From Gemmatimonadota bacterium (GTDB lineage: Bacteria; Gemmatimonadota; Gemmatimonadetes; Longimicrobiales; Gaopeijiaceae): DNA of 64,000 bases. The notes beneath the pieces are model-generated. The model searched no databases. It was not told where the DNA came from and saw only the letters and a program-made list of their open reading frames with translations. The stretch lies in the NCBI GenBank assembly GCA_012960225.1, contig DUBS01000041.1, forward strand, positions 1-64,000, written 5' to 3'. The position numbers and the translations under genes are program-made. Below, piece after piece: positions 1,958 through 55,805 of the stretch (position 1 is the first letter of the stretch; every line of letters begins with the position of its first letter).

Positions 1958-2311
1958 CTAATTAACCAATTCGATGAGCGATATCTCGGCTGCATCACCT
2001 TTGCGGTTACCCAACTTTAGAATCCGGGTATAACCACCCGGGCGCTCAGCGTATCGGGAAGAAATTTCATCGAACAATTTCCCTAAAACCTCTCGATCTT
2101 GGATCTTCCGAGCCACTAAACGCCTCGCGTGCAAGTCACCGCGACGAGCGAGGGTAATTAGGCGCTCAGCATAAGGTCTTAGCTCCTTAGCCTTAGCAGT
2201 GGTTGTCTCGATGCGCTCATGTCGAAAAAGCGAAGTCGCCAAATTCCGCAACATGGCTCGTCGGTGACTCGCTGTTCGCTGGAGCTTTCGTCCCTTTTTC
2301 CTATGTCGCAT
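1958..2311 (-). CDS. rplQ: 50S ribosomal protein L17
   Basis: A 117-residue L17, near the usual length. It opens with [19 protein letters not shown] and has the family helix [17 protein letters not shown], the segment in the family that lies near the polypeptide exit tunnel. It starts 2 bases after the rpoA stop, the standard alpha-operon order, so translation is probably coupled to rpoA. Confidence 0.97.
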
Positions 2312-2313
2312 AA

Positions 2314-3360
2314 CTAACCGTTCTCAGTTCCTGCGGTCTTACCCTCCGCATCTAAGAAAAAGAGGCGGCCGTCTTCCCCTTGTTCAAGCTTCATACCGAA
2401 TCCTAGCTCCCTCTCTTCCAAGAAGTCTGAGATCTCTTTAAGAGATTTCTTACCAAAATTCTCAATTTGCAGCATATCATCTTCTGATGACTGCACTAGA
2501 TCCGCCAATGTAAGGATATTCTCCTTATGCAAAGAATTACGAGAACGTACAGAGAGTTCAGCAAGTTCTTCGATCAAACTCGAAAGTAGAGCTTGCTGAT
2601 TCTCTGAAACCGCAACCGATCCTGGAGGAGTAACTTCAGGAATTCCACCTTCGCTGAAATAAAGCATGTACTCTAGGTGTTTCCTGACAAGTTCAGCCGC
2701 ATAAGCAACTGCGCTTGACGGATCTAACGAGCCATCGGTCTCTATGTTCAGTGTGAGTCGATCAAAATCTGTTCGTTGGCCAACCCTTGTTTCCTCCACG
2801 GAGAAGTTGGCCCTCCTCACAGGATTATAGATCGAATCGATACGGACGAGATCCACCGGGGCTTCTCGCGGAACAGGGTGTTGACCCGCGAGCACAAAAC
2901 CACGGCCTTTATTGATGTAAAGCTGAACGCGGAGCTTGCGGTCTTCCTGAAGAGTGAAAATATGATGGCCTGGATCCATGACAGTGGCTCCAGAGGTTGG
3001 CTGAATATCTCCCGCAGTCACAATACCAGCCTTGTCGACTTGTATCTCTAGAACTGCTTCATCCACATCATCATCCAAAGTCACGATCAGTGACTTCAGG
3101 TTCTGGATCACCTGGTGGACATCCTCTATCACACCACTAATCGTTTGATGTTCATGCAGAACTCCGTCGATACGGAAACCCCACACTGCCGCCCCTCTCA
3201 GTGAGGATAGCAGTACACGGCGCACTGAATTGCCCAGGGTATGTCCAAAGCCCCGCTCAAGCGGCTCGATCATGAATTGAGCCGAACGGTCAGCATCCTC
3301 AACACTCTCGATCTGCTCAATACGCTCAGGGAGTACCAAGCCAGTGAGATCTAGGTCCAC
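2314..3360 (-). CDS. rpoA: DNA-directed RNA polymerase subunit alpha
   Basis: 348 residues, slightly longer than E. coli RpoA (329). The N-terminal dimerisation domain (about 1-235) carries the signature [20 protein letters not shown] near residue 32. The C-terminal domain (about 260-330) has the helix-hairpin-helix region [14 protein letters not shown], which in the family contacts UP-element DNA and activators. A short acidic tail follows. It lies between rpsD and rplQ in canonical alpha-operon order. The 53-base gap to rpsD is one of the larger gaps in this operon. Confidence 0.98.
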
Positions 3361-3413
3361 GATATCCTCCTAAACAGCCTTACTTGAGTCGGAATTAATG
3401 ATCCGACGTAGGA

Positions 3414-50214: not shown

Positions 50215-51189
50215 CTAGGGCATCCGATTCCAGAAGCGATAATTAATGAGCTTGTAGACAAGCTTCGCAACTAGAAAGTCTGGTGCGTGAATCCCTGGGG
50301 CAGGTGCTAATTCCACGACGTCGGCTGCAACAACTTCCCGCTCAGCCAGCACCCGCCTCAGAAATCGCAGAGTCTCGTACCATGAAGCTCCACCCGGTTC
50401 AGGAGTGCCAGTCGACGGAACCACTGCCGGGTCGAAGTAATCCACATCGAAAGTAAGATAAATTTTTGGGCCAAGAGCATCAAGCGCACGGTCCATCCAT
50501 GCGTCGCTTTCCCACATCTCATCTGCCCAGATAAGTGTTGAGCCACCCTGAGAGTTGGAGGTATTGACCTCTTCCTTACTAACCCCACGCACTCCTACAG
50601 CAACGACATCAGCGCAATCCAGGACTCGAGCCATCGCTGAGGCATGCGAATCGGGTGTCCCCTCATACTGCAATCGAAGGTCAGCATGAGCATCGAGCTG
50701 CAACACAGTAAGTCTTTCATCATATCGGTCAGCCTGAGCAAGCACTGCGGCGGCTGAAATCGAGTGCTCACCACCAAGCATGACAAGAAATCGGTCACCA
50801 CATACATCTGAAATCCTGGCATACGCATTACGAAGTTCTTCCATCGCAGCCGTTGGACCAGCTCTTGAAAGCTCCAGCCCAGGTAATGTGTGGATACCTA
50901 GTAACTGAGCTGGTTCACAGTCAAATTCTTGATCGTATAACTCCACGTAACGGGATGCCTCAAGAATCGCGCGAGGACCAAGCCGAGTACCACCTCCCCA
51001 AGAAGTAGTAGCCTCATACGGTACAGGAAGAATGACGGCAGCAGCTTTAGCGAAATTCCCAGCTACCTCATCGAGACCGAGGAATGTGTGTGGAAGCTCC
51101 CATGGAAGATCACCTAATCCGGGCAATCCCACCGGATCGGAGCATTCACCACCACGACCGGATGCATCCGGGTCACGTCGGTTAGGCAA
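50215..51189 (-). CDS. speB: Agmatinase / ureohydrolase
   Basis: 324 residues. The binuclear manganese ligands are visible: His in MLGGEHSISAA, Asp-x-His-x-Asp in QLDAHADLR, and Asp-x-Asp in FDVDYFDPAVVP, followed by GTPEPGGASWYE. This ordering suits agmatinase (agmatine to putrescine and urea) better than arginase, although the two are close. rocD elsewhere in the window would handle ornithine if it were an arginase. Confidence 0.88.
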   Translation of the reverse strand: MPNRRDPDASGRGGECSDPVGLPGLGDLPWELPHTFLGLDEVAGNFAKAAAVILPVPYEATTSWGGGTRLGPRAILEASRYVELYDQEFDCEPAQLLGIHTLPGLELSRAGPTAAMEELRNAYARISDVCGDRFLVMLGGEHSISAAAVLAQADRYDERLTVLQLDAHADLRLQYEGTPDSHASAMARVLDCADVVAVGVRGVSKEEVNTSNSQGGSTLIWADEMWESDAWMDRALDALGPKIYLTFDVDYFDPAVVPSTGTPEPGGASWYETLRFLRRVLAEREVVAADVVELAPAPGIHAPDFLVAKLVYKLINYRFWNRMP

Positions 51190-51202: not shown

Positions 51203-51703
51203 TCAAGCCGTCTCGATCGGACACATCAAGCCTCCGACCGGCAACTCGGCACCCCCTTCATCACAATCTCTACAGAGCCCGTATATCTCAAGCCTATGCC
51301 GAACCGGGACAAAGCCGTGCTCACGCCGAATACGGCTCTCGACACCATAAACTTCATTACTCTCGAACTCTAGCACGGTCCCGCATTCGAGACAGATGAG
51401 ATGCTCATGGATAGGATGCTCGGAGAACCTGTGCTCATAACGCTTGAATCCCTCGCCAAAATCATGCTCTTCTACGAGTCGACTACGCACTAGAAGATCT
51501 AAGGTGCGATAGATCGTAGCCTTCCCGACTCTGCCCGCACGATTTCTAAGCGCCTGCTCAATATCATGCGCGGATAGATGCTCATCAGATTCGAAAACAA
51601 TTTTCGCGATAGCTTCCCGCTGCTGTGTTACCGGAAGGCCCTCGTCTCGAAGGTAGCGACCGAAGAGTCGAATGAACGGTTGGCGTGTCGAAACCAAACT
51701 CAA
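51203..51703 (-). CDS. fur: Fur-family metalloregulator
   Basis: 166 residues. The winged-helix domain has PVTQQREAIAKIVFESDEHL and VGKATIYRTLDLLVRSRLVE. The dimer/metal domain has the HEHLICLECGTVLEFES and LCRDCDEG CxxC pairs for structural zinc. Fur/PerR/Zur members repress iron, peroxide or zinc genes; which metal it senses cannot be told. The start overlaps the gene at 51700-52140 by 4 bases. Confidence 0.93.
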   Translation of the reverse strand: MSLVSTRQPFIRLFGRYLRDEGLPVTQQREAIAKIVFESDEHLSAHDIEQALRNRAGRVGKATIYRTLDLLVRSRLVEEHDFGEGFKRYEHRFSEHPIHEHLICLECGTVLEFESNEVYGVESRIRREHGFVPVRHRLEIYGLCRDCDEGGAELPVGGLMCPIETA

Positions 51704-52140
51704 AGCGTAGATCCCCTCTCAATCCAAGCGTCAAAACCCTCCATCAACTCCTCAAACTTTTGTCCCGAGCCAGAGATCTCAATCTCCCGTGCTTCTCCAG
51801 GTGTTTCCTTAGTTCGGTTGACGACACCCAGCATCACCGCAGGAAATCGCTCAGGAAGAGCCTCTCCTTCCTGTGTAAACCAAGTTTCGATACTCACACC
51901 GGCTCCCGAATGCTCAGCTGTATACGCTACAGTAACCATAGCCCTTCGCTGCTGCCCCTCAAGGAAGGTACTCACTGCGACTAACCCTTGCTCCCGTCTC
52001 CCTCGTCGTACTGGTGGAAACAGCCACAGTCTGTCAATCAACTCTGAACCAAAGTGGTCACGCACACGAATCAAAACTCTAGGCAGGGCTTCCGGTACAC
52101 CAGGATCGCGAGAGGATTCAATTGCTTGTACACTCGTCAT
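51700..52140 (-). CDS. Hypothetical protein between fur and a DHH phosphoesterase
   Basis: Family not recognised. 146 residues, soluble, no signal. Alternating strands are apparent (LPRVLIRVRDHF, QGLVAVSTFLEGQQRRAMVT, VSIETWFTQEGEALPERF) followed by the C-terminal helix KFEELMEGFDAWIERG. It overlaps fur and the DHH gene by 4 bases each, so the three are very probably one operon translated in series. Confidence 0.75.
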   Translation of the reverse strand: MTSVQAIESSRDPGVPEALPRVLIRVRDHFGSELIDRLWLFPPVRRGRREQGLVAVSTFLEGQQRRAMVTVAYTAEHSGAGVSIETWFTQEGEALPERFPAVMLGVVNRTKETPGEAREIEISGSGQKFEELMEGFDAWIERGSTL

Positions 52141-53177
52141 GTATCCTCCTCTAGAACTCTATTGGAGTCACGGACGATCATCTCACGCGCTGCCATTAGC
52201 ACCTTCTCGATAGCTCGTTCAAGTGGTCCTTCTACCATCGCTCCAGATGCCTTGACGTGTCCGCCACCGCCAAACTGGTGAGCAAGTTGATTGACATTGA
52301 ACCGTCCACTTGAGCGGAAAGATATCTTTATTCCACCAGTCTTCGCCTTGCTAAAGAGAAGGGCAACTTTATTACCTATGATAGACCGCGGGATATCCAC
52401 CATGCCCTCAAGGTCTTCGGCAGTGGCTCCTAGAGCTTCATAAGCATCTCTAGGGACCGTCATCCAAGCGATTCCGTACTCCTCGTCGTTCTCCAAAGTT
52501 TCGAGAGCAGCACCCAGCAGCTGATACTTACGCAGCCGGGCTCTGCCATATATGCGACTATACACATCCTCCGAATCTACACCTCTGCTAATCAGATCAG
52601 CTGCTATCATGTGCGTCCCTGGTGTCGTATTCGAGAAGCGAAACGATCCTGTATCAGTGAGCACCGCAACATAGATCCCAAGGGCTACCTGCTCGGTCCA
52701 AGGGCCATTGGCAGCAAGCACAAGATCATGAATCAGTTCGCCTGTAGCAGCAGCAGCAGGGTCACGTAGAGAAATCCCACCAATAGGTTGTGCACCTGGC
52801 TGATGGTGATCGATCACAACGGTTCGGAGTTTTCGAATCAGGTCTCTTGCGCGACCGATTCGTGGCACTTCACCAGTATCCAAAACCACAGCAAGATCCG
52901 CCTGGTCACACAGGTCTCGCGCACGAGCAGATCCGGCGGGTACAATCCAACGCTCATCCTCTACAGCAAAGTGGAATGTCTCCGGGAACGGGGTTGGATT
53001 GATGATCCAAGCCTCGGTCCCGTTGGCTCTGAGCCATGATGAGAGTGCCGCTTCACACCCTGCTCCGTCGCCATCAGCGTTAATATGGGTGGTGAGGATA
53101 GCTGAACGTGAAGCCAAGAGTGCTTCCTTGACTTTACGAACTTGTGCCGCACGCCCTTCTGGCGTCCGGTAGTTCAC
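52137..53177 (-). CDS. DHH/DHHA1 phosphoesterase (NrnA-like oligoribonuclease)
   Basis: 346 residues. The DHH domain has ILTTHINADGDGAGCEAALS (near 33), VVLDTGEVPRIGR and VIDHHQPGAQPIGG. The DHHA1 domain has the Gly-rich HQFGGGGHVKASGA near residue 308. NrnA-like enzymes degrade short RNA fragments and 3'-phosphoadenosine 5'-phosphate, and some cut c-di-AMP products. It heads the operon running into the hypothetical gene and fur. Confidence 0.92.
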   Translation of the reverse strand: MNYRTPEGRAAQVRKVKEALLASRSAILTTHINADGDGAGCEAALSSWLRANGTEAWIINPTPFPETFHFAVEDERWIVPAGSARARDLCDQADLAVVLDTGEVPRIGRARDLIRKLRTVVIDHHQPGAQPIGGISLRDPAAAATGELIHDLVLAANGPWTEQVALGIYVAVLTDTGSFRFSNTTPGTHMIAADLISRGVDSEDVYSRIYGRARLRKYQLLGAALETLENDEEYGIAWMTVPRDAYEALGATAEDLEGMVDIPRSIIGNKVALLFSKAKTGGIKISFRSSGRFNVNQLAHQFGGGGHVKASGAMVEGPLERAIEKVLMAAREMIVRDSNRVLEEDT

Positions 53178-53272: not shown

Positions 53273-54541
53273 TCAGGTTTGTGCTATGGGCAACTTCTTC
53301 CGCAACTTCGCCCATGTTGATGCAACGTGAACCATGTGTGACGAGGCAGTTCCTGTAATACGTCCCTTGGCCAGAGCTAAACGAAGAGAAGAGGCCTGGT
53401 TTGGATGTGGTTGTACTTCAACCGACACCGAACCCAATTCTCTCAATGTGTGCGCATCCGAGCCACCACCACGAAGACTCCCATGGCGGTCAGCAAGCTC
53501 TTCTGCCAATCGGTTTTGCTTAGGCTGGTGTAATCGCGCATTAAAGATTTCCACGACATCGCAGAGAGGAGCCAACATCTCTGCAAATCGCCCCCCTGCC
53601 CCTTTCTTACCAGCCGCATAAGGATGCGGAAGGTACGGGATACCTCCCTGTTCACGAATTCTCTCGATCGTTTCCATTGCAGGGGTACCCTTCGGGATTA
53701 ATTCCGACAAGTATAGGCCGATCACATCAATGGATTCCTCAGTCTTGATCTCCTCTCCTGGAATGACCAGGTCGGGGTATGCGTCGGCCATGCGTAGAGC
53801 AGCATCCAACTCGTTGTGATCAGTTATCGCGATACGGCCCAACCCTCGTTCAAGTGCGGTATCAAGAACAGCATCCGGATCAGACAAGCAATCGAAACTT
53901 CCAGCAGTGTGAAGATGAAGGTCCATGCACAATGTTCCCATATCTGCACGGGATTGAAGTTCTTTTAGTAATTCACCTGCTGCTGAATTCAGGTCTTCGA
54001 GTGTGTCATTATTTGAGAGAACAAAATCTGCTTTTGACCGTTTGATAGAGGCTTCAATCTGAACCCCGATAAGCCGTCGAGCTTCTTCAATATTCAACTC
54101 ACGAGTCTGGATCAAACGCTGAATCCGCTCACTCTCGCGAGCATCGACAAACACTATCACATCGAAGTCGTCCTCCCTGCCTGTTTCAAAAAGCAGGGGA
54201 ATCTCAGAGACAACCAAGTCCTCGCCTTCAACATGCCTAGCTTCTAACCACTGGTCTCGTCGCTCCCAAATCAGTGGATGAAGGATCCCTTCCAGCTTTC
54301 TACGGGCATCTTCATCTGAGAGGATAACTGCACGGAGACGTGCACGGTCGAGAGTCCCATCGGCAGCAAGAATTTCATCACCGAACGTGTTGCGCACTGC
54401 CTGGATTCCTGGGGTTCCTGGGAGCACCACTAGCCGGGATAATTCGTCGGCACTGATTATGGGAACCCCTGATTTGGCCCATTGTGCGGCGACAGTTGAC
54501 TTCCCAGAGGCAACGTTTCCGGTGAGTGCGACGTTCAGCAA
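53273..54541 (-). CDS. coaE: Dephospho-CoA kinase fused to a PHP-domain phosphoesterase
   Basis: 422 residues. Residues 1-195 form a full CoaE: P-loop GNVASGKST (8-16), SADELSR, LEGILHPLIWERR and VSEIPLLFET. It phosphorylates dephospho-CoA, the last step of CoA synthesis. Residues about 205-422 form a PHP domain: DLHLHTAGSFDCLSDP, AITDHNELDAAL, GEEIKTEESIDVI, LPHPYAA and GGGSDAHTLRELG, all expected metal ligands in order. Such domains hydrolyse phosphoesters or nucleotides. The frame is continuous; an internal Met201 (base 53941) has no ribosome binding site that I can see. Confidence 0.9.
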   Translation of the reverse strand: MLNVALTGNVASGKSTVAAQWAKSGVPIISADELSRLVVLPGTPGIQAVRNTFGDEILAADGTLDRARLRAVILSDEDARRKLEGILHPLIWERRDQWLEARHVEGEDLVVSEIPLLFETGREDDFDVIVFVDARESERIQRLIQTRELNIEEARRLIGVQIEASIKRSKADFVLSNNDTLEDLNSAAGELLKELQSRADMGTLCMDLHLHTAGSFDCLSDPDAVLDTALERGLGRIAITDHNELDAALRMADAYPDLVIPGEEIKTEESIDVIGLYLSELIPKGTPAMETIERIREQGGIPYLPHPYAAGKKGAGGRFAEMLAPLCDVVEIFNARLHQPKQNRLAEELADRHGSLRGGGSDAHTLRELGSVSVEVQPHPNQASSLRLALAKGRITGTASSHMVHVASTWAKLRKKLPIAQT

Positions 54542-54596
54542 GCGTCAACTTCCTCCCAATACCAGGCCAGCTCACAGGCATGCGTCAGGAAGGCCT

Positions 54597-55130
54597 TCAC
54601 GCCATCCACGAAGATACCAGATCGAACAAATAAACGATTGTAAAATACTTTAATGTCAGGCCAGCCACGCTGTACAGAAGGGCCCGACGAGCACTGTACC
54701 GTATCATTCCTGCCACCAACGACAGAACCGAAGACGAGAGAGGAAAGAGGTTGAAAAATAGGATGGCCCAACCTCCCCACTTCTTGATGCTGCCCTTGAA
54801 ACGAGTGTAGCGCATCTCACCGATCAGATTATGAATAACTCGGTCACTAACCGCTCTTCCGATACAGTAATCGATGACTTCACCAGCGATCGCTGTTGAG
54901 ACAGCGATGAGGATCAGTGTCGCTCCAGCGTGTCCCTCTGCTTGATAGATTGGGACTAGTGCCTCTACCGGCATTAAGAGGAAAAAGAGGTACCCAGAGA
55001 AGTGGATTAGCGCGAAGGACGAGAGGCTCGGACTTCGACCCGCGAGGATCTCTTGGCCAAGTATCCAGGAGACGAGTGCAATGGCAATGACCGCTGGCAG
55101 GGCCACCCTCACAATGCGCTTCTTCATCAC
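54597..55130 (-). CDS. Small polytopic membrane protein, VTT/DedA-like
   Basis: 177 residues. Hydrophobic segments lie at about 7-25, 40-60, 70-95, 120-140 and 148-172. The pattern ATLILIAVSTAIAGEVIDYC with GRAVSDRVIHNLIG then KKWGGWAILFFNLFPLSSSV resembles the VTT (DedA) region, where an E-x-x-x-Y-x-x-G helix precedes a re-entrant FxRxxP-like turn. Members are lipid scramblase or transporter-like. The match is partial, so the family call is tentative. It overlaps the gene at 55127 by 4 bases. Confidence 0.65.
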   Translation of the reverse strand: MMKKRIVRVALPAVIAIALVSWILGQEILAGRSPSLSSFALIHFSGYLFFLLMPVEALVPIYQAEGHAGATLILIAVSTAIAGEVIDYCIGRAVSDRVIHNLIGEMRYTRFKGSIKKWGGWAILFFNLFPLSSSVLSLVAGMIRYSARRALLYSVAGLTLKYFTIVYLFDLVSSWMA

Positions 55131-55501
55131 CGGCTACGTGCTGTAACAAAATTGAAATCGTCCGCCGTTGCACGTACCCGGTCAGGACCATAGGAAATGA
55201 CCATCACTGAATCAGTGGCAACGCTAAGCTCATAAGCCGAACCCCAGGGGTCACGTCGCTGCTCATCGAGTGTATAGCGAAAATCGAGCCAAGAAACCCA
55301 ATCACCGCGATCTGGGACGTCTCCTGTAAGACTTTCATATTCAATCACGTTCCGCCCGATGCGCTCCATCTCTTCTAGGGCACCCGATTTGATGACTGGT
55401 AAGACTAGTGGCTCTGTCGCATCCAGAAGCATCAGTCGAGAATCTGGGAAGTAGTACACCGCAAGAATCCCGACTATTAGAAGCAATGAAACCTTAGCCA
55501 T
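55127..55501 (-). CDS. GspG C-terminal-like membrane-anchored protein
   Basis: 124 residues. One N-terminal membrane segment (VSLLLIVGILAVYYF) is followed by a helix (GALEEMERIGRNVIEYESLT), then DPWGSAYELSVATDSVMVIS and the end GPDRVRATADDF. The DPWGxxY, SxGPDR and TADD elements are the calcium-loop region of type II secretion major pseudopilins. The N-terminus lacks the Gly-Phe-(x)3-Glu prepilin cleavage motif, so it should not assemble into a pseudopilus. No other secretion genes are nearby. Confidence 0.65.
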   Translation of the reverse strand: MAKVSLLLIVGILAVYYFPDSRLMLLDATEPLVLPVIKSGALEEMERIGRNVIEYESLTGDVPDRGDWVSWLDFRYTLDEQRRDPWGSAYELSVATDSVMVISYGPDRVRATADDFNFVTARSR

Positions 55502-55805
55502 TGTCCCTCTGCTTCATCTGACTTCTCATCCGTGCTGTCCAAAGGAGATACCGTTCAAGCTCATCATCTGTTGGGACAGCATCCGAATCCCCATAAGCCG
55601 TCTCCATCCTCCATTTCATATACGATGCAGGAGGCAAAGGAAGAAATGGGGGTCTACGATACCAATCGCGAGATCGAAATGCCCATGCAGCCTGCAGCAG
55701 ATACGGAACCGTGCGTGGGCGCCTGAGCGCCAGGCCCGCCATTTTCAGGTACAGGGCTAGTCCCTCTATTTGTTCGAGGTGGTGACCACCTGGGATAGCA
55801 GCCAT
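55494..55805 (-). CDS. Hypothetical protein
   Basis: Family not recognised. 103 residues, basic, helical, with many aromatic residues (AAWAFRSRDWYRRPPFLPLP; PASYMKWRMETAYGDSDAVP) and a C-terminal helix ERYLLWTARMRSQMKQR. The aromatic/basic stretch suggests peripheral membrane contact. It overlaps the GspG-like gene by 8 bases and heads the small membrane cluster 54597-55805. Confidence 0.65.
   Translation of the reverse strand: MAAIPGGHHLEQIEGLALYLKMAGLALRRPRTVPYLLQAAWAFRSRDWYRRPPFLPLPPASYMKWRMETAYGDSDAVPTDDELERYLLWTARMRSQMKQRDNG

Follow-up and report, generated by a model that had tools for sequence, protein, structure and literature searches.

Dephospho-CoA kinase (CoaE) and a PHP-type phosphoesterase domain are joined in one polypeptide in a member of the Gemmatimonadota. 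The open reading frame at positions 53273–54541 of the window, meaning the whole stretch of 64,000 nucleotides that was analysed, encodes a complete kinase followed by a complete PHP + PHP_C domain and is a real fusion. The architecture seems to be undescribed. Its carriers belong to several families within a single phylum and, as judged from sequence comparisons, it arose several times.

The fused gene and its reading frame

The gene and its parts, all on the minus strand, are as follows.

53273–54541, minus: fused coaE-PHP gene, 422 amino acids, one uninterrupted open reading frame from a TTG start at 54541 to its end at 53273
54552–54556, minus: GGAGG at 10 nt upstream of the TTG, probably the ribosome-binding site
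53987–54541, minus: dephospho-CoA kinase domain, residues 1–185 (Pfam CoaE, alignment, Foldseek matches to CoaE structures)
53927–53986, minus: variable linker, residues 186–205 (alignment of 55 fusions)
53291–53926, minus: PHP + PHP_C phosphoesterase domain, residues 206–417 (Pfam, alignments, AlphaFold model, Foldseek)

The kinase half matches the Pfam family CoaE (PF01121) at residues 4–182 with 157.6 bits against a cut-off of 27, and TIGR00152 with 135.8 bits against 65.55. Foldseek searches with this half returned bacterial CoaE structures, and a search of the genome identified the fused protein as its only CoaE. The CoaE motifs are kept throughout 55 fusions, namely the P-loop GNVASGKST, D32, R36, HP88-89, PLLxE115-119, R139/R142, Q161, and N177; G8, G13, K14, D32, R36, H88, P89, R139, R142, Q161, and N177 are invariant. 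The first-pass annotation had described a complete dephospho-CoA kinase with P-loop and core motifs, and both the profile scores and the invariant core bear this out. The C-terminal half matches PHP at residues 207–254 (29.5 bits, cut-off 26.4) and PHP_C at residues 341–394 (37.8 bits, cut-off 21.3).

The two halves had been reported to run into each other without a stop, with a possible break suspected at about 53940–53960. The reading without a stop holds: four congeners share the frame across the join, with neither indel nor stop, and the genes are fused in about 60 genomes. A frameshift or a missed stop is thereby ruled out. The probability that the join is an artefact of a missed stop, a frameshift, or an assembly error is negligible, as about 60 separately assembled genomes have it in common. 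That the PHP part is a second, hidden gene starting on its own was ruled out as a general rule, given that 20 of 65 fused genes lack an ATG, GTG, or TTG within 12 codons upstream of the PHP part. Separate translation of the PHP part is therefore not general; it is possible in some fused species that have a Met or GTG close to where the PHP part begins.

Distribution and selection

The full fused protein was found in about 38 of 98 relatives. In a wider draw, about 60 of 394 Gemmatimonadota genomes carry the fusion, in many genera and several families, including two families outside the order of the window's genome. The closest named relatives are the Gemmatimonadota metagenome assemblies UBA7889 and Red Sea RS373. 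Three contigs with Gammaproteobacteria titles (L116, L118, L122) contain the Gemmatimonadota coaE-PHP-nrnA-fur-arginase operon in a layout nearly identical to that of L125, and they are probably mislabelled Gemmatimonadota bins.

Among the four congeners, dN/dS ranges from 0.08 to 0.25 for the CoaE half, from 0.07 to 0.16 for the PHP half, and from 0 to 0.29 for the short linker. These ratios indicate that purifying selection acts on both the CoaE and the PHP halves.

Metal site and domain arrangement

Eleven residues of the PHP half are invariant in 55 fusions: H209, H211, D217, H242, E264, D272, H306, E331, N334, D362, and H364. The catalytic residues are kept in 28 PHP proteins of the subfamily as well as in the 55 fused proteins, and the Pfam profiles PHP_C and PHP detect 28/28 and 26/28 of these members, respectively. 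H209, H211, H242, E264, H306, D362, and H364 align to known PHP metal-ligand positions, using the ligands of RNase AM as reference (PMC9410882). The claim of the first-pass annotation that all metal-binding motifs are kept stands for most ligands, but the motif-I Asp, D217, is shifted by one residue in the alignment to RNase AM, and the invariant D272 takes the place of His83, the beta-metal ligand of RNase AM. In Chloroflexota and other phyla, relatives likewise carry an acidic residue at about the position of His83, so that this feature seems to be characteristic of the subfamily. The PHP half has the ligand set of a trinuclear site, and metal binding is predicted.

AlphaFold modelled the PHP half at a pLDDT of 95.6 and the full-length protein at a mean pLDDT of 92.8 with a pTM of 0.59. 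The full-length model predicts no fixed interface between the domains, and its low pTM is weak evidence against one. N177 and D207, on the two sides of the join, are 28–45 residues apart across the 55 fusions, and the linker sequence varies. The models suggest two independently folded domains on a tether, with no fixed interface.

Operon context and origin of the fusion

The fused gene belongs to a conserved operon. The neighbouring genes in the window are the following.

52137–53177, minus: nrnA-like DHH/DHHA1 phosphoesterase gene (profiles), directly downstream of the fusion, order conserved
51700–52140, minus: conserved operon protein of 146 amino acids (h146), no Pfam match, kept in relatives
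51203–51703, minus: Fur-family regulator (Pfam), conserved operon member
50215–51189, minus: arginase/agmatinase family gene (Pfam), conserved operon member
54597–55130, minus: upstream gene for a VTT/DedA-type membrane protein (Pfam), present in part of the relatives
55127–55501, minus: upstream conserved protein of 124 amino acids (h124), no Pfam match, conserved in relatives
55494–55805, minus: upstream conserved protein of 103 amino acids (h103), no Pfam match, conserved in relatives

NrnA is a short-RNA exonuclease (PMC9757072). The 124-residue protein has a DPWG motif that gives the impression of pseudopilin-type proteins. At the Gemmatimonadota locus L134, a further DHH/DHHA1 gene (2294–3367) extends over the start of coaE, and DHH genes thus flank coaE-PHP on both sides.

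Elsewhere among the relatives, two separate genes encode CoaE and the PHP protein; they adjoin on the same strand and mostly overlap out of frame. Among 52 distinct split pairs, the PHP start codon overlaps the coaE stop by 4 nt in 26 and by 8 nt in about 14, and none (0/52) has the two genes in the same frame. The adjoining and overlapping arrangement in relatives indicates that an operon gave rise to the fusion, and the out-of-frame overlap means that an indel is required, beyond the loss of a stop. Relatives with two separate genes had been named in advance as a case against the fusion; such relatives do exist, but as a sister arrangement of a true fusion. Mapping the fused or split state on a tree of 109 sequences gave 12 changes, six of them forced by strongly supported branches, a count that alone does not separate fusion from fission.

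An in-frame fusion was found in 67 of 120 distinct coaE-PHP pairs. The control pairs of the operon gave 0/81 for PHP-nrnA, 1/72 for nrnA-h146, 1/56 for h103-h124, 0/54 for h146-fur, and 0/37 for fur-arginase, that is, two fused cases in total among all other neighbour pairs, all of these counts being taken from related sequences and not from independent events. The comparison of 67/120 with two cases elsewhere in the operon shows the fusion to be specific to coaE-PHP.

Some genomes deviate from this pattern. In G026, G028, and G029 (loci L069, L070, L079), coaE is followed directly by nrnA, and no match to the PHP half was reported in these three genomes. Further members of the genus g25 (e.g., G141 and G150) gave a single match each, to CoaE.

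Outside Gemmatimonadota, no coaE was found beside the PHP subfamily at 14 loci, mostly from Chloroflexota, within the 0.2–4 kb examined upstream. The neighbours there include EF-P with a formyltransferase-domain protein, a beta-CASP nuclease with a PrsW protease, DUF362, and lysyl-PG synthase-type genes, and no common partner was found among the neighbourhoods compared. As the neighbourhoods differ between phyla, the partner of the PHP subfamily is not fixed. At loci L162, L161, and L157, from Dehalococcoidia and one contig with a Deltaproteobacteria title, the PHP-subfamily gene lies downstream of EF-P and upstream of the formyltransferase-domain protein; L157 has an extra gene between EF-P and the PHP-subfamily gene.

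Possible roles of the fused protein

The favoured account, with about an even chance of being correct, is that of a true two-enzyme fusion derived from an ancestral coaE-PHP operon pair, with tethered domains and a PHP half acting on a small nucleotide-like phosphoester. The N-terminal half would phosphorylate the 3'-OH of dephospho-CoA with ATP, as expected from its family and its invariant residues. For the C-terminal half, the account predicts an active metallophosphoesterase with the PHP fold that belongs to a compact PHP/PHP_C subfamily. Its putative site is of the trinuclear type, and in the sequence Asp/Glu stands in for one of the His ligands. The domains are expected to fold independently on a tether of 20–40 residues. 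With no fixed interface predicted between them, the benefit of the fusion most likely lies in making both enzymes at a fixed 1:1 ratio and keeping them close together, not in allostery. The PHP half probably hydrolyses its small phosphoester alongside the NrnA-type phosphoesterase encoded next, the candidate substrates being CoA-derived 3'-phosphonucleotides or short RNA ends. The nucleotide part of this proposal rests partly on family resemblance, and the neighbourhoods of the PHP subfamily differ in other phyla.

The first-pass annotation had gone further and suggested a bifunctional control point, with CoA, dephospho-CoA, or PAP as the molecule from which the PHP half might strip a phosphate or a nucleotide. 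On this reading, the PHP half would balance or salvage what CoaE makes. Some coupling of CoaE and PHP is hinted at by the pair-specific, repeated fusion and by the NrnA-type gene directly downstream, whose family has PAP phosphatase members. Moreover, CoA metabolism yields pAp on the side (PMC8268124), and the RNase AM/CV1693 relatives act on RNA ends and 3',5'-bisphosphates (PMC9410882). The proposal was nevertheless not supported, and what indirect evidence there is speaks rather against a specificity for CoA: the PHP subfamily occurs in other phyla at the 14 loci where no coaE was found nearby, G026, G028, and G029 keep coaE with PHP absent, the insert that forms the AMP pocket is missing, and the genome has a separate protein of the 3',5'-bisphosphatase/RNase AM type. 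Such a control point is thus considered unlikely. It is similarly improbable that the 3'-phosphoadenosine moiety is both built and broken down by a single protein, with the PHP half cutting the 3'-phosphate of CoA, pAp, or dephospho-CoA-capped short RNA and NrnA finishing the products.

Another view holds that unrelated activities were joined through gene overlap in the operon, with linked expression as the sole benefit and neither a shared substrate nor channelling. Adjoining, overlapping genes in relatives, the variable linker with no predicted interface, and the other partners of the PHP subfamily elsewhere agree with this view, which is possible though doubtful. Against it, hardly any fusions occur among equally tight neighbour pairs in the operon, the out-of-frame split pairs demand an indel in addition to the loss of a stop, and the fusion happened several times. 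It is very unlikely that the PHP half chiefly aids the folding or solubility of CoaE, as the UPF0157 domain reportedly does in mycobacterial CoaE, where the C-terminal domain is required for CoaE folding (PMC2765170). Despite this precedent, the PHP half varies at none of its catalytic positions and is under a constraint at least equal to that on CoaE, and free-standing CoaE occurs in relatives. A role as folding helper only is also disfavoured by the selection data (PHP dN/dS of 0.07–0.16).

Among genomic hints of a common function, specific and repeated fusion is one of the better ones, and here it concerns an essential biosynthetic enzyme. No characterised member of the compact PHP subfamily was found, and the fusion poses a testable question about its substrate. 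Should the PHP half of the proposed two-enzyme fusion act on CoA-derived nucleotides, it would represent a new coupling of CoA synthesis to nucleotide turnover.

Comparison with known systems

The fused protein shares with dephospho-CoA kinases (PF01121, TIGR00152) the whole kinase domain with its P-loop and core, and differs from ordinary CoaE in the added C-terminal PHP domain. Eukaryotic COASY (PPAT-DPCK), met as the Foldseek match 2f6r, also combines a CoaE-type domain with a second enzyme in one chain. There the partner is PPAT, which lies on the N-terminal side and is a pathway neighbour, not a phosphoesterase.

The PHP half has the fold and most metal ligands in common with RNase AM (YciV/Rnm) and the bisphosphate phosphatase CV1693, whereas the AMP pocket of these enzymes is formed by an insertion domain that the PHP half lacks. 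In RNase AM the insert covers approximately residues 107–176, while D272 and H306 of the PHP half are only 34 positions apart. Scores are far below the cut-offs of the models for the RNase AM and 3',5'-nucleoside bisphosphate phosphatase families (28.6 vs 400 bits and 23.7 vs 375 bits), and membership as RNase AM or PAP phosphatase was rejected on both grounds. Other PHP domains of the genome lie in two frames of 1184 and 1132 amino acids, which by length have the size of replicative DNA polymerases, and in a protein of 272 amino acids. The latter aligns nearly full-length to two models, scoring 159 bits with that for 3',5'-nucleoside bisphosphate phosphatase (cut-off 400) and 146 bits with that for RNase Rnm (cut-off 375), both below the cut-offs.

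Among solved PHP structures, the nearest in Foldseek were TM0559 (TM-score 0.70) and RNase AM (TM-score 0.60, with the best E-value). TM0559 (PDB 2anu), a compact PHP protein of no known function, shares the compact fold at 19% identity, but it keeps the canonical His where the subfamily described here has Asp/Glu.

No CoaE paired with a PHP domain was found described in the open-access literature, in agreement with the first-pass annotation, which did not know the pairing as a described enzyme. The closest parallel is mycobacterial CoaE-UPF0157 (Rv1631; PRK03333/NF002879), likewise a CoaE with a second C-terminal domain. That domain is UPF0157 in mycobacteria and a PHP metallohydrolase here; NF002879 aligns to residues 1–192 only and below its cut-off (179.7 vs 215), and no C-terminal UPF0157/GrpB domain was found in the fused protein, whose C-terminus is PHP. 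The known CoaE fusion being the mycobacterial one, CoaE-PHP therefore seems to be a new domain combination built from two families that are already known.
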